The position numbers and the translations under genes were made by a program. A stretch of DNA of 64,000 nucleotides from an uncultured Gemmatimonadota bacterium (lineage in GTDB: Bacteria; Gemmatimonadota; Gemmatimonadetes; Gemmatimonadales; Gemmatimonadaceae). The DNA is taken from assembly GCA_903910555.1 (NCBI GenBank), contig CAIVZZ010000013.1, forward strand, positions 62,001 through 126,000. The letters run 5' to 3'. Of this stretch, positions 11,068 to 53,853 are shown in pieces (position 1 is the stretch's first letter; every line of letters begins with the position of its first letter). Under the pieces are notes generated by a model. That model ran no database searches and was not told the DNA's origin. It was given only the letters and a program-made list of their open reading frames with translations.

Positions 11068-11084
11068 TTCTGGTGTAGGGAGGG

Positions 11085-11120
11085 AAAAAGAGTGGGGGCC
11101 ACATGGCCCCCACTCTTTTT
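11085..11120. terminator. Bidirectional intrinsic terminator after the SusCD unit
   Basis: A perfect 16-base stem (AAAAAGAGTGGGGGCC with its complement) closes on the 4-base loop ACAT, with T-runs on both strands. It follows the SusD stop by 17 bases. Confidence 0.93.
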
Positions 11121-11130
11121 TTATTCCGAA

Positions 11131-11386
11131 GAGAGGTGAGTGTGAGTTGAGTAAGAGAGACGAGTTTGAGAGGGAGGGATGAGTTTGAGTACGCTCAGTG
11201 GGAGGTTGAGGGGCGAGACTGAGTTTGAGTCGGAGTTAGAGGGCGTGAGAGATATGCGGAGCGCGATCGCGCGCGACTCCCACTTATCTCACACTCGGCC
11301 TCACTCTCGCCGCTCATACTCCCACTTCGCTTACGCATACTCATCCCTCCCTCTCAAACTCGTCTCTCTTACTCAACTCACCTCTC
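11131..11386. repeat. Giant purine/pyrimidine palindrome (element D)
   Basis: A 256-base imperfect inverted repeat fills the gap between two terminators of convergent genes. The outer arms contain a perfect 38-base match (11147-11184 against 11339-11376). The inner arms match loosely, and the centre is GCGCGATCGCGC near 11261-11272. The left half is almost free of C and made of GAGT/GAGTTTGAG-like words; the right half is its pyrimidine complement. I see no gene in 11068-11473 apart from this element and the two terminators. Confidence 0.9.
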
Positions 11387-11419
11387 GCACTAACTCGCAC
11401 TCCTAGCGTGAACAGCGCG

Positions 11420-11459
11420 AAAAAAGGAGGGGGAGCCATTTGGCTCCCCCTCCTTTTTC
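11420..11459. terminator. Bidirectional intrinsic terminator after the S9 peptidase
   Basis: The stem AAAAAAGGAGGGGGAGCC and its complement close on the loop ATTT, with T-tracts on both sides. It lies just past the stop of the minus-strand peptidase gene, mirroring the terminator of the convergent SusCD unit. Confidence 0.9.
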
Positions 11460-11473
11460 GGCCCCATCATCCG

Positions 11474-15115: not shown

Positions 15116-16489
15116 CTACGGCTTGTTGCGCGCCCCGAGCATCGTCTTCGACCATATCACCAGCGTCGGGCAGTTCCGGCCCGTCACGCTGAACTCCGGT
15201 GGCACGGTCACCGTCGACGAATAGAACTCCACCGCCCCCAGGTCGTCGGGCGTGATCGTGTTGTCCAGATCGCCCGGACCGACCTGCGAGATGCGCGCAT
15301 GATCGAGGAAGATGTTGAGGCAGCCATCGGACGTCCCCTGCGGCCCGTGCATCGACTCGACCGACGTGCCGTTAGCACCGTAGACCACGCGGAGCCCACC
15401 GGCCGACCGCAGGGCATCGGTGGTCTTGATCGGATGTCTCTTCTCAATCTCTTCGGGGGGCAGGAACCAGCCCATCCCGACCTCCTGCCGATTGGTAAAC
15501 CCGACTTTCGCGAGCCCGCCATCGAGTTGGCCGACGACTTTCACGGTCTTCAGGACCTGCGCGTCGTCCAGCGTCACCGTCACGGTGCTCGGGGTCCTGG
15601 CGGAGAGTGTGACGACCTGCGTCGTCTGCGCGAAGCCGATCTTTTTCACGACCGCTTGATGTGTGCCGGACGGAAGGCTTCCGAGCGTGAAACTGCCGTC
15701 TTCGCCGGTGGAGGTGACGCCAGCGCTTCCCTCAATGGAGACCTGCGCGCCGCTCACGGCCGCGCCGGCCTTGTTCGTCACCCGGCCTTTCAACACCGCG
15801 GTTCCGGCGCCGGCAGCGCCGATCGCAAGCATCGTGGTCCCGACGCGCTCGTTGTTCAGCGCGACCGGAACATCCGCGGTTTTCAGGCCAGCCATGGAGG
15901 CCTGAATGCTCCCGGAGAGCTTGGACGGCAGACCGCAGATCGCGAACAGACCGGTGGCATCGGACCGGCCGGTGCGCACGCGCTCGGGGCTGTGCTCGGT
16001 GTAGAGATCGCGGAACACGAGCGATAACGTCGCGCCCGCTGCGGGCTCGTCGCTGTCCGCCTTGTTCACTCGGCCGAGGAGGATCGACGAACCGGCGGCG
16101 ACACCGCCCCGCGGGCAGGAGCCCTCGCGGATGTCCTCGATGGACGGTGTGCGGACGTTCAGCTGGAGACGATCGCCGGCTGCGAGTGTGAACGCCGCCG
16201 AGTGGACCTTGAGTCCGAGGGTATCGAGGAATGGATGGGTGACGAGGATCGAGTGCGGGCCGGGCGGGATGCTGTCGATCCGGAAGGTGCCGGTCGCGTC
16301 GGTCATCGACTGGCGGGTGGTTCCGGGGACCGTGACGAGCGCGCCGACGAGCGGACGGCCGCGGATACTGTCGTCGACGGTGCCGACGAGCGACGCGAGG
16401 CCGGGCGCGGGCTGTTGGGCGGGGGCCGAGAGCGGCGCGCCGAAAAGGATTGCGGCCGCAAGCGAGATCGCCGTGGCACGGGATTTCAT
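15116..16489 (-). CDS. Exported stand-alone plug-domain protein 2 (paralogue)
   Basis: Function unknown, clearly related to the neighbouring gene. It has a signal peptide (cleavage about APAQQ), a CarboxypepD_reg-like domain (GTVDDSIRGRPLVGALV), a middle domain with Cys in GSCPRGG and FAICGLP, a second regulatory-like domain (GRVTNKAGAAVSGAQVSIEG), and a plug-like C-terminus (CLNIFLDHARIS; LGAVEFYSSTVTVP; NCPTLVIWSK). No beta-barrel follows. I start at the ATG at 16489, which begins the signal peptide directly; an ATG at 16504 adds five residues. Tandem duplication is likely. Confidence 0.7.
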   Translation of the reverse strand: MKSRATAISLAAAILFGAPLSAPAQQPAPGLASLVGTVDDSIRGRPLVGALVTVPGTTRQSMTDATGTFRIDSIPPGPHSILVTHPFLDTLGLKVHSAAFTLAAGDRLQLNVRTPSIEDIREGSCPRGGVAAGSSILLGRVNKADSDEPAAGATLSLVFRDLYTEHSPERVRTGRSDATGLFAICGLPSKLSGSIQASMAGLKTADVPVALNNERVGTTMLAIGAAGAGTAVLKGRVTNKAGAAVSGAQVSIEGSAGVTSTGEDGSFTLGSLPSGTHQAVVKKIGFAQTTQVVTLSARTPSTVTVTLDDAQVLKTVKVVGQLDGGLAKVGFTNRQEVGMGWFLPPEEIEKRHPIKTTDALRSAGGLRVVYGANGTSVESMHGPQGTSDGCLNIFLDHARISQVGPGDLDNTITPDDLGAVEFYSSTVTVPPEFSVTGRNCPTLVIWSKTMLGARNKP

Positions 16490-16531: not shown

Positions 16532-16647
16532 GTCTACAGTCTGAGGTCTATTGTCTAGCGTCTGAAAACCCGCAGGACGTAGTTCACAGCTATGAACTGC
16601 AAACAGCGGGTCATCAGACGCTAGACAAAAGACTCTAGACTCAAGAC
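16532..16647. repeat. Palindromic intergenic element A, copy 1
   Basis: A 116-base inverted repeat in the divergent gap between plug-domain gene 2 and the Tat-signal epimerase. The arms pair through most of their length, with a perfect core TTGTCTAGCGTCTGA (16551-16565) against 16614-16628 and a centre near TTCACAGCTATGAA. Over about 75 bases of the core it matches the element at 53435-53562 (reverse complement) with only a handful of differences. Confidence 0.92.
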
Positions 16648-16724: not shown

Positions 16725-17927
16725 ATGTCTCCCAGTCGCCGCACCTTCATCAAGTCGGTCTCCGCCATCGGCGGTGCTGTTGGCCTTTCCGGTCTGCCCA
16801 CGCTCGCATTCGCACAAAACGAGCGCGACAACGCGAAGGCGCCGCAGGCGGCGCCCGCGAAAACAGAACGTGCCCCCGCCCCACTCGATATCCTGATCCT
16901 CGGCGGCACCGGCTTTACCGGTCCCGAACAAGTCGAGTATGCCACGGCGCGCGGCCATCACGTCACGCTGTTCAATCGCAACAAAACCCGCCCTGATTTT
17001 TTTAAGGGACGCGTCGATCAGCTCATCGGAGATCTCAACGGCGACGTCAGCGCGCTGAAGGGAAAATCGTTCGATGTCGTGATCGATAACCCGACAACGC
17101 TGCCGAATTGGGTGCGCAACGCAGCATCGGCGCTCGCGGGGCACACGAAGCATTACATGTTTATCTCGACGATGTCGGTCTACCCCGACAACAGCCACCC
17201 GGGAATGGACGAGAGCGACGGCCTGACGCCGATGCCGGCGGGGCTCGATCCGTATGCCGTGTCTCCGGAGGACGCGCGCAGACAATACGGCGCGCTGAAA
17301 ACGGAATCGGAGAAAGAAGTCCAGCGGAAATATCCGGGGATCAACACGATCATCCGGCCGGGCCTGATCGTCGGCCCGCTCGATAAATCGGATCGCTTCA
17401 CCTACTGGCCCGCGCGCATCGACAAAGGCGGCGAGGTGATGGCGCCCGGCAACCCGACCGATCCCGTTCAGATCATCGACTCGCGCGATCTCGCCGAGTG
17501 GATGATCCGCATGGCGGAAGGGCGCGTGTTCGGCACGTACAATGCGTGCGGCCCGTCGACGCAACTCTCGATGATCGAGATGCTCGCGGGTATTAAAGCC
17601 GTGACGAGCGCCGGTGCAGAGTTCACCTGGGTTCCGGCGGATTTCCTGAAGGCGAACGGGATCAATGGCTGGCGACACATGCCGGTCTGGCTGCCGCCCG
17701 AGGGGAGCACGGCTGGATTCACGCGCCGCAGCAATGCAAAGGCGCTCGCAAAAGGTTTGACCTTCCGCCCGCTCGCCGTGACCGCGAAAGACACGCTCGA
17801 CTGGCACAAGACGCGGCCGCCCGAGGAGCAGAAGACGCTCGATGATGGTGCGATTGCGGGGATTCCCGCGGCGAAGGAAGCTGCGGTGCTCGCGCTCTGG
17901 CACGCCAAGCAGAAGAACGGCAGCTGA
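16725..17927 (+). CDS. Tat-exported NAD-dependent epimerase/dehydratase-like protein
   Basis: Rossmann-fold protein of unknown substrate. From the ATG at 16725 the product starts SPSRRTFIKS, a twin-arginine signal followed by a hydrophobic stretch and a LAFAQN cleavage region, so it is probably exported folded. The mature part has the dinucleotide motif ILGGTGFTG (about residue 55) and the SDR-like MFISTMSVYPDN, followed by PYGALKTE-like 'QYGALKTESEK' with the Tyr/Lys pair. An ATG at 16677 would hide the Tat signal. It overlaps the transporter gene if that starts at CTG. Confidence 0.82.
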   Translation: MSPSRRTFIKSVSAIGGAVGLSGLPTLAFAQNERDNAKAPQAAPAKTERAPAPLDILILGGTGFTGPEQVEYATARGHHVTLFNRNKTRPDFFKGRVDQLIGDLNGDVSALKGKSFDVVIDNPTTLPNWVRNAASALAGHTKHYMFISTMSVYPDNSHPGMDESDGLTPMPAGLDPYAVSPEDARRQYGALKTESEKEVQRKYPGINTIIRPGLIVGPLDKSDRFTYWPARIDKGGEVMAPGNPTDPVQIIDSRDLAEWMIRMAEGRVFGTYNACGPSTQLSMIEMLAGIKAVTSAGAEFTWVPADFLKANGINGWRHMPVWLPPEGSTAGFTRRSNAKALAKGLTFRPLAVTAKDTLDWHKTRPPEEQKTLDDGAIAGIPAAKEAAVLALWHAKQKNGS

Positions 17928-22762: not shown

Positions 22763-22936
22763 ACGCAGAACGCAGGAGAGGAATTGGGACGCGGGGTGGA
22801 GAGGTGAGGGGAGAGTAGCGATGAGATGTGAGAAAGGGCGCGAACTTGAAATGAGCCGCGCCCTTTCTCACATCTCGCATCTACTCCAATCTCACATCTC
22901 CACCCCGCGTCCCAATTCCTCTCCTGCGTTCTGCGT
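22763..22936. repeat. Palindromic intergenic element C, copy 1
   Basis: A 174-base inverted repeat beginning 22 bases after the tricorn stop. The outer arm (about 40 bases, including CGCAGGAGAGGAATTGGGAC and the following GCGGGGTGGAG) is near-perfect. The inner arm GAGATGTGAGAAAGGGCGCG closes on a 14-base loop. A partial further copy of the outer motif lies at about 22941-22965. The remainder of the gap (to 23149) shows only a short hairpin near 23083-23099 and no gene. Confidence 0.92.
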
Positions 22937-30087: not shown

Positions 30088-30120
30088 CGGGTAGGGCGTC
30101 CCCGGCAACCCAAGAGAAGT

Positions 30121-30238
30121 GAACTGTTTTCTGTTGGTCGGCTAACCAAGGTTTTCCGTCCGGACTACGGACGTTGTCGCGCGGTACGTAGTCCGGACGG
30201 ATTCTCTGACAGAACACCGACCAACAGAAGACAGTCAA
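30121..30238. repeat. Palindromic intergenic element B, copy 1
   Basis: Nested inverted repeat of about 118 bases, 12 bases beyond the stop of the minus-strand membrane protein gene. The outer arms are CTGTTTTCTGTTGGTCGG and its near-complement; the inner arms are CCGTCCGGACTACG and its exact complement. One arm shares roughly 42 aligned bases with the element at 37708-37785. Confidence 0.9.
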
Positions 30239-32924: not shown

Positions 32925-33039
32925 GACACGGGAGGCGGGAGAGGAATCGGAACGCGGGTGTTCGCGAAGAGACACTCACTTCTTCTCTCATCTCGCCTCT
33001 CCACCCCGCGTCCAAATTCCTCTCCTGCGTTCTGCGTCA
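32925..33039. repeat. Palindromic intergenic element C, copy 2
   Basis: Imperfect inverted repeat starting about 24 bases past the radC stop (minus strand). The right arm, about 40 bases (CACCCCGCGTCC through TCTGCGTCAG), is almost identical to the right arm of the copy at 22763-22936. The left arm is more diverged (GGGAGAGGAATCGGAACGCG), and the inner stem of copy 1 is absent. Its left end abuts the relA/spoT promoter. Confidence 0.85.
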
Positions 33040-33062
33040 GCATTTAGTCTCACCCCTCGCCG

Positions 33063-37707: not shown

Positions 37708-37785
37708 AACTACGGTTCTCTGTTGGTCGGTTAAGCACGGTGGTTGACGTAAAACCTTCGTTAACCGACCAACAGAAAACAGTTA
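37708..37785. repeat. Palindromic intergenic element B, copy 2
   Basis: A 78-base inverted repeat between nadD and bamD. Core arms CTGTTGGTCGGTTAA and its exact complement lie at 37720-37734 and 37761-37775. The bamD stop codon (TTAA, 37783-37785) forms the end of the right arm. One strand matches element B copy 1 over about 42 bases (AACTGTTTTCTGTTGGTCGG, then TAAC-AAGGTTTT-CGTC with few changes). Confidence 0.9.
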
Positions 37786-38589
37786 ACGCAGTCCGGGTTT
37801 CTTCACGGGTACCGCCGGCACCGCCGGCGCCGCGGGTCCCGTCGGACACAACGCCGCCACCGCCGGATCCCCGGCGTACGCCGCCCTCAGCGTCACGCAG
37901 GTTTCAGCGGCCTCCGGGATGTATTTCAACTGCGGACGCCGATACACGATGACCATTTCCATCAGCGCGTCACGCGCGACTTTCGTATTCGGATAGTTCT
38001 TGACGACGTCCTTGAAATAGATCAGCGACGACTCGTACGCGCCGCGCCGCGTGTATTGCATCCCCGTGCCGTAATCCTTTGCGGCCTTCCGTTCGTCGAT
38101 CGAAAGCGACGCACTGTCCGCCTGCTTTCGAATCGGCAGATCCGGATAAATCGCGGCCAGCTGCCTGAACTGGATCTGTGCGAGATCGCCGTATGTGGCA
38201 TCAAGATCGGGCCGGCGCCACAGCGCGGCATACGACTGGCCGGCAAGGAGCAGCGCCATCGGCGCGAGCGAATCGTCCGGGAACGACTCGGCCAGGCGCG
38301 CGTAGCTCGCCGCGGCGAGCAGATGCTCGAGCTTCATCTCGTGCGAGTGGGCGAGCCACCAATGCGCGAGCGGCAGGAGCGTATCGCGCGCCGAGAGATC
38401 GAGCGTGAGCCGCTCGAATCCGGTCACCGCGTTGTCGTACTTCTTCTTGTTGTATTCCGCGAGCGACGCGTTGTACAGCAGCGTGCTCGACGCGTAGCTG
38501 CGCGGCTGAAATGCCGGACGGCACGCTGCGCCTGCGACAAATGTCGCGACGAGCAATGCGGCGCGGACCTTGGCAGAAACGCGCATCAT
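37783..38589 (-). CDS. bamD: Outer-membrane assembly lipoprotein BamD/YfiO-like
   Basis: Lipoprotein of the beta-barrel assembly machine. Using the ATGATG at 38589, which overlaps the uxs stop, gives 268 residues with a signal peptide and lipobox VAGAAC (Cys about residue 23). TPR-like helices follow ([76 protein letters not shown]). The Pro/Ala-rich tail is not typical. A general TPR lipoprotein is the main alternative. Confidence 0.82.
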
Positions 38590-52394: not shown

Positions 52395-53562
<1,168 letters not shown>

Positions 53563-53575
53563 AACTTCCGAATAC

Positions 53576-53606
53576 AAAAAAGGGAGCCAACCGGCTCCCT
53601 TTTTTG
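53576..53606. terminator. Intrinsic terminator of the ribosomal protein operon
   Basis: The AAAAAAGGGAGCC stem with its complement closes on a 4-base loop, with T-runs on both strands, 20 bases beyond the rpmB stop. It shares the AAAAAAGG...GGAGCC layout with the terminator at 11420-11459. Confidence 0.92.
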
Positions 53607-53625: not shown

Positions 53626-53853
53626 TCACGCGACGACAGCCGCCGCGGTGCCTCTCGGCGCCCGCTGAATCTTGCCGGCGGCAAGACAGCGCGTGCAGAC
53701 CTTGATCTTCTGGATCTTGCCATCGATGACGATGCGCGCGACCTGAAGGTTCGGCTTCCAGGTGCGGCGGGTCTTGTTGTTCGCGTGCGAGACGTTGTTG
53801 CCGAAGGCGATTCCCTTCGTGCAGACGTAGCACTTGTTGCGTGCGATAGGCAT
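53626..53853 (-). CDS. rpmB: Ribosomal protein bL28
   Basis: Large-subunit protein. The 75 residues show the typical KCYVCTKGIAFGNNVSHANNKTRRTWKPN opening, given here in two parts of one motif: a first CxxC (CYVC, residues 8-11) and a second (CTRC, about 53-56), so this is the zinc-binding form. It is the last gene of the rpmJ-rpsM-rpsK-rpsD-rpoA-rplQ-rpmB run; its placement after rplQ differs from the usual rpmB-rpmG pairing of many bacteria. Confidence 0.96.
   Translation of the reverse strand: MPIARNKCYVCTKGIAFGNNVSHANNKTRRTWKPNLQVARIVIDGKIQKIKVCTRCLAAGKIQRAPRGTAAAVVA

Follow-up and report, generated by a model that had tools for sequence, protein, structure and literature searches.

The DNA analysed here, called the window throughout, is a 64,000-nucleotide stretch of the genome of an uncultured Gemmatimonadota bacterium (G000; 3.2 Mb in 32 contigs). 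Within it, a minus-strand gene with CarboxypepD_reg domains (15116–16489) and a plus-strand gene of the NAD-dependent epimerase family (16725–17927) diverge from a gap that holds copy 1 of what we call element A, a near-palindrome of 116 bp at 16532–16647 (plus strand); the two start codons lie 42 and 77 bp from it, respectively. Copy 2 lies at 53440–53555 on the minus strand, as delimited by its repeat units. Upstream of it are the gene for ribosomal protein L28 (rpmB; 53626–53853, minus strand) and, adjoining copy 2, the separate intrinsic terminator AAAAAAGGGAGCCGGTTGGCTCCCTTTTTTG (53575–53605, minus strand) that follows rpmB; downstream is the gene for GDP-mannose 4,6-dehydratase (gmd; 52395–53375, minus strand). 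A sequence-only reading of the window had described these two elements as near-identical palindromes that agree over about 75 central bases, and both statements hold: copy 1 and the reverse complement of copy 2 are 87% identical across 110 bp, with an ungapped core of 74 nt, and a repeat search recovers them in inverted orientation, matching at 90% over 92 nt. Folding of both strands, proposed there as a check, gives z-scores of -10.6 to -12.1 against dinucleotide shuffles for the two copies.

The palindrome is assembled from 7-bp units, a feature that the sequence-only reading had missed. The left arm of copy 1 (16532–16566, plus strand) parses into five inward heptads, GTCTACA GTCTGAG GTCTATT GTCTAGC GTCTGAA, and the right arm (16613–16647) reads ATCAGAC GCTAGAC AAAAGAC TCTAGAC TCAAGAC on the plus strand. 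On the minus strand this right arm becomes GTCTTGA GTCTAGA GTCTTTT GTCTAGC GTCTGAT, again five GTCTNNN units, so the two arms are inward-pointing 7-bp arrays. Between them lies a 46 bp centre (16567–16612, plus strand; AACCCGC..GTTCACAGCTATGAAC..GCGGGTC) that is conserved in an alignment of 20 copies. Copy 2 is built in the same way, with arms of GTCTNNN heptads. A continuation of the 7-bp grid into the centre is weakly supported (p 0.21 for the prespecified contrast, p 0.03 when any phase is allowed).

A search of the source genome returned 54 matches to element A with both strands counted, or about 27 places, and these copies are dispersed and intergenic, mostly 116 bp long, and conserved in their centre. 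The earlier view of the two palindromes as copies of a single element, not as hairpins of separate origin, is thus borne out, since about 27 copies in the source genome and about 11 in a sister species share the centre; no further copies and an unconserved centre would have been expected otherwise. The arm pattern itself, three GTCTNNN units followed by GTCT, has 60 matches in G000 as compared with 0 for the reversed control. The length of the centre varies among copies (-7, also +20 and +48): it is shorter by one unit in four copies and duplicated in two neighbouring ones. Several half copies and decayed remnants are also present. At one locus (L041, C4:128305) half of element A is accompanied by an intrinsic-terminator-like hairpin in place of the left arm, and at another (L043, C8:47647 and 47937) the two halves have swapped places and are separated by about 290 bp. 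In L037 (C5:100671) the left arm, and that arm alone, has been lengthened to some nine units, GTGT variants among them, apparently by 7-bp slippage expansion. Rfam models applied to five element loci matched only tRNAs, with no family for element A, and when the core was sought in GTDB contigs a single record matched, a contig of a Gemmatimonadetes MAG.

One explanation of such a structure is that it is neutral heptameric simple-sequence DNA generated by polymerase slippage, with neither a function nor dedicated copying. Many bacteria have an excess of heptameric repeats, and slippage linked to the polymerase footprint has been proposed, according to work cited in PMC4692102 and PMC4679880, and the array expansion in L037 is of the kind that slippage would give. 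However, local slippage cannot make element A, because about 37 dispersed copies have in common a 74-nt core whose centre is non-repetitive; the homology of this centre between copies refutes the simple form of the explanation, and the arm units moreover differ consistently between sister species. We therefore consider neutral slippage quite improbable.

With gene calls from a codon-usage caller trained on the window, nearly all copies in the source genome lie between genes or on the margin of such a gap; where a gene ends beside the element its stop codon is mostly 0–18 bp away, and start codons are mostly at 25–170 bp. Copy 1 had been placed in a divergent promoter gap, as the only one of its set not clearly at a gene end; its placement stands and is not unique, as divergent gaps hold five copies at four sites (copy 1, L002/L004, L009 and L020). 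The adjacency to stop codons, together with a fold that is very stable on both strands, would fit a transcription terminator or other 3'-end hairpin kept for its RNA structure. Against this, the flanks of the G000 copies carry no T-runs, so that the intrinsic-terminator pattern of a GC hairpin followed by a T-run is absent, and copy 2, L006 and L036 each adjoin a separate intrinsic terminator; a terminator similar to that of rpmB is retained alone in most of the relatives that lack element A. The five copies in divergent gaps and the lack of compensatory covariation described below argue in the same direction, and a terminator role is unlikely, markedly so in our estimate. Read by eye, the orientation of the copies relative to the preceding gene is unbiased (about 9 same, 5 opposite).

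Conservation in element A tracks the heptad sequence rather than the hairpin structure. The GTCT of each unit is nearly fixed while the next three letters vary, and within a copy the variable letters of one arm show no match to those of the other (permutation p 0.12–0.98); the unmatched changes between arms that had been noticed in the two window copies are thus a property of the whole family. Of the cells in the 74-nt core (20 copies), 85.9% pair, as compared with 85.4% after shuffling, and the covariation score was reached by 58 of 500 shuffles. Compensatory pairing was accordingly rejected, both pairing and covariation being at shuffle level. In the outer heptads the parser itself accounts for part of the GTCT conservation, as it favours GTCT-like words, whereas the core alignment, which is free of this bias, has GTCT at columns 1–4 and 8–11 invariant or nearly so. 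With the variable letters unmatched and no compensatory change beyond shuffles, two inward-facing arrays that carry the same fixed letters suffice to explain the palindrome. The left and right halves of the copies have no shared history either (r = -0.08).

Identity among the copies of the source genome averages 0.828, and the best pair reaches 0.93, giving no sign of very recent copying. The copies are clustered, with 20 pairs less than 25 kb apart where simulation gives a mean of 4.9 and a maximum of 18 in 3000 runs. Local duplication of neighbouring copies was considered and rejected, as near pairs are no more alike than far pairs (0.820 vs 0.828).

A gmd and rpmB tree places a second species, G002, as the sister of the source species (98/97 support), and its genome holds about 11 full copies, with arm units of its own, AGTCTGT GTCTGGA GTCTTTC GTCTGGA GTCTTTT; the units are diagnostic of the species, GTCTAGC-GTCTGAA in G000 and GTCTGGA-GTCTTT in G002. 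Five G002 copies occupy the same junctions as G000 copies. Both flanks are fully common for two of these pairs (L005/L184 and L013/L193, G000/G002); in another two (L011/L183 and L008/L187) the flanking genes are common and extra or missing DNA separates one side; in the last (L040/L190) one side is common and a contig end interrupts the junction. The identities of the five orthologous pairs are 0.80, 0.71, 0.76, 0.74 and 0.67, with a mean of 0.736 that is close to the 0.740 of other cross-species pairs, whereas copies within G000 and within G002 agree at 0.828 and 0.800. That copies are more alike within a genome than between orthologs had gone unseen in the reading of the window by itself. 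Either concerted evolution or the independent arrival of copies at the same junctions would give this pattern; we favour concerted evolution because five of the roughly eleven G002 junctions coincide with those of G000, and favoured insertion sites could instead explain the shared junctions. Copies that resemble others of their own species yet differ from the sister's copies at the same sites suggest that something keeps rewriting them.

The main rival to rewriting is that element A is a MITE, bounded by terminal inverted repeats, lacking a transposase of its own and mobilised by one acting in trans; the GTCT heptads would then be subterminal transposase-binding repeats. Terminal inverted repeats are indeed present, with defined ends in the G002 copies (AGTCTGTGTCTGGAG .. 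CTCCAGACACAGACT) and in one G000 subfamily; copies are many and clustered, and relatives have junctions that are free of the element. Such empty sites, looked for as a mark of transposition, exist at the copy 2 junction (in distant relatives), at the L005 junction (in G009, which has the same two genes) and at the L011 junction (where G017, G001, G003 and G005 have nothing), but no duplication was found at any of these three; at the copy 1 junction the upstream gene is different in relatives. Nor do the flanks of the copies share more than shuffled flanks do, the longest word common to a flank pair averaging 3.07 as compared with 3.10, so that the transposition implied by the sequence-only reading finds no support in target-site duplications. 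Further points against a MITE are that the heptad matches in the source genome include no long element with the same arms and no arm pair around a gene; that no copies are recently identical, the best pair being at 93%; and that orthologous copies resemble each other no better than cross-species pairs taken at random. We judge this explanation unlikely, if less so than the others considered here.

A population of REP or REPIN sequences mobilised by a RAYT (TnpA-REP, a Y1 HUH transposase) would also be palindromic, intergenic, close to gene ends and free of duplications, and would persist as an intragenomic population, a behaviour described for REPINs in PMC8049555. Y1_Tnp (PF01797) has no match in G000 while 5 of 14 control genomes match it, and the unit of element A is 116 bp of heptads with GTCT.. 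termini rather than a 20–40 bp REP with a GTAG or CGTC tag. A RAYT-driven origin is thus very improbable, more so than any other explanation weighed here.

Element A is not the sole palindrome of its kind in these bacteria. The order rpmB–terminator–gmd is conserved across the genus, and in G000 element A is placed between the terminator and gmd. At this copy 2 junction the heptad palindromes of G002, G010 and G012 are built of other units (such as NNTGCGG and GATGCGN), so that a sister species carries a different palindrome at the same place, a third feature that had escaped the first reading; G001, G004, G006, G008, G009, G011, G013 and G016 have no such palindrome there. The L011 junction has a GAGCGAC-type heptad palindrome in G012 and an intrinsic terminator in G009; in G015 (C10, L228 / L244) it has four tandem copies of the 13-bp unit GCGACTGGCCGAG. 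Under uniform scoring, 6 of 8 informative junctions of G002, G010 and G012 are heptad-periodic, an excess that is suggestive only, since 25–57% of the gaps of 60–400 bp in these three genomes score as heptad-periodic anyway, and 26–43% of gaps attain the score of the informative sites. This high background also speaks for independent arrival at favoured sites as a possible source of the junctions shared with G002.

G010 and G012, about 93–95% identical in aligned stretches, have a dispersed heptad palindrome family of their own, GAGCGAC..GACCGTC..GTCGCTC (e.g. L251:1362-1480, L311), numbering tens of copies, with 103 and 72 matches, respectively, both strands counted; copies differ between the two genomes by gain or loss of the palindrome middle while the outermost units remain. 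Period 7 and its multiples also make up nearly all intergenic tandem repeats in samples of 120–200 kb from the related genomes G041, G057 and G022 (107, 72 and 106 matches per 10 kb, respectively, with 0 for most other periods), whereas samples of G003 and G015, which belong to the source genus, contain none. The heptad units vary between genomes and between loci.

The window also contains other inverted repeats. At 11068–11473 a palindrome of about 240 bp made of GAGTNN / NNACTC words stands between two intrinsic terminators, and a similar TGAG/CTCA palindrome occurs at another junction in G010 and G012 (L202, L204). A second palindrome family, at 22763–22936 and 32975–33040, has 63–66 bp in common ending in TCCTGCGTTCTGCGTCAG, and a third inverted repeat (CTGTTGGTCGGTTAACC..) recurs at 30119–30160 and 37712–37787, in two gene gaps about 7.6 kb apart.

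Several known repeats resemble element A in part. ERIC and the RU-1 127-bp palindromes, which are MITE-like, share with it a length of about 120 bp, a near-palindromic and intergenic character, tens of copies and a conserved centre; they differ in that concerted evolution at shared junctions is not among their defining features, and element A for its part has no duplication that we could find. We know of no heptad arms in ERIC. REP and REPIN sequences are likewise extragenic palindromes near gene ends that form persistent intragenomic populations; element A is much longer, is built of heptads, and has no RAYT in its genome. The cyanobacterial STRR sequences are intergenic heptamers that change in 7-nt indel steps between close strains, and they are direct repeats rather than palindromic families. 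The same is true of the TAACTGA repeats of Beggiatoaceae and cyanobacteria, intergenic heptamers with 7-nt indel steps between close strains that are direct rather than palindromic and, in Beggiatoaceae, stand mostly before start codons (PMC4679880).

The closest known kind is the inverted heptameric repeats of Xanthomonas, (GGGANTN)n, and of Nostoc, GGGGAYT. These arrays are mostly intergenic, combine fixed and free letters, and begin some 28 nt away from the ORF that precedes them; Xcc has 70 inverted pairs of them, and related species mostly retain the gene pairs but differ in the sequence and length of the array (PMC4692102). Element A is like them in its 7-bp units of fixed and free letters, its intergenic and inverted arrangement, its position near the end of the upstream ORF, and its altered sequence at gene pairs that related species retain. 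Those pairs are G-quadruplex formers with no reported conserved centre (PMC4692102), while the GTCTNNN units lack G-tracts; as the G-tract marks those sets only, element A is a variant of the wider heptameric kind that falls outside them. It goes beyond them in that dispersed, homologous copies share a conserved 46-bp centre, that the units are specific to each species, and that orthologs can be compared with paralogs. Among the papers searched, none dealt with such heptad repeats in Gemmatimonadota.

Taken together, these results describe element A as a family of dispersed, non-coding repeats, each an inverted GTCTNNN array around a conserved centre. We lean modestly towards the view that its copies are rewritten and its heptads read in their sequence, and that it represents, in one lineage, a broader class of heptad palindromes found between genes in Gemmatimonadota. 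Under such a scheme, copies would be repeatedly rewritten from one another, by gene conversion, by template switching between dispersed palindromes or by copy replacement, and arm length would change by 7-bp slippage. The fixed GTCT heptads may be kept through reading of the sequence by a putative DNA- or RNA-binding factor or by the copying machinery itself, in which case the hairpin would be a by-product of two inward-facing arrays. On the other side, a star-like burst followed by free mutation is also expected to leave halves unlinked and covariation absent. The broader proposition that Gemmatimonadota maintain genome-wide junction heptad palindromes, each lineage with its own word, co-rewritten by a putative dedicated factor or copying machinery, is a speculation that we regard as rather less probable than the reading of the family itself.

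Earlier reports of intergenic heptameric repeats in bacteria came without a mechanism. The recognisable centre of the present family makes it possible to compare orthologous and paralogous copies, and since paralogs here are more alike than orthologs at the same junction, both the spread of such repeats and the upkeep of their likeness become testable with close strains.
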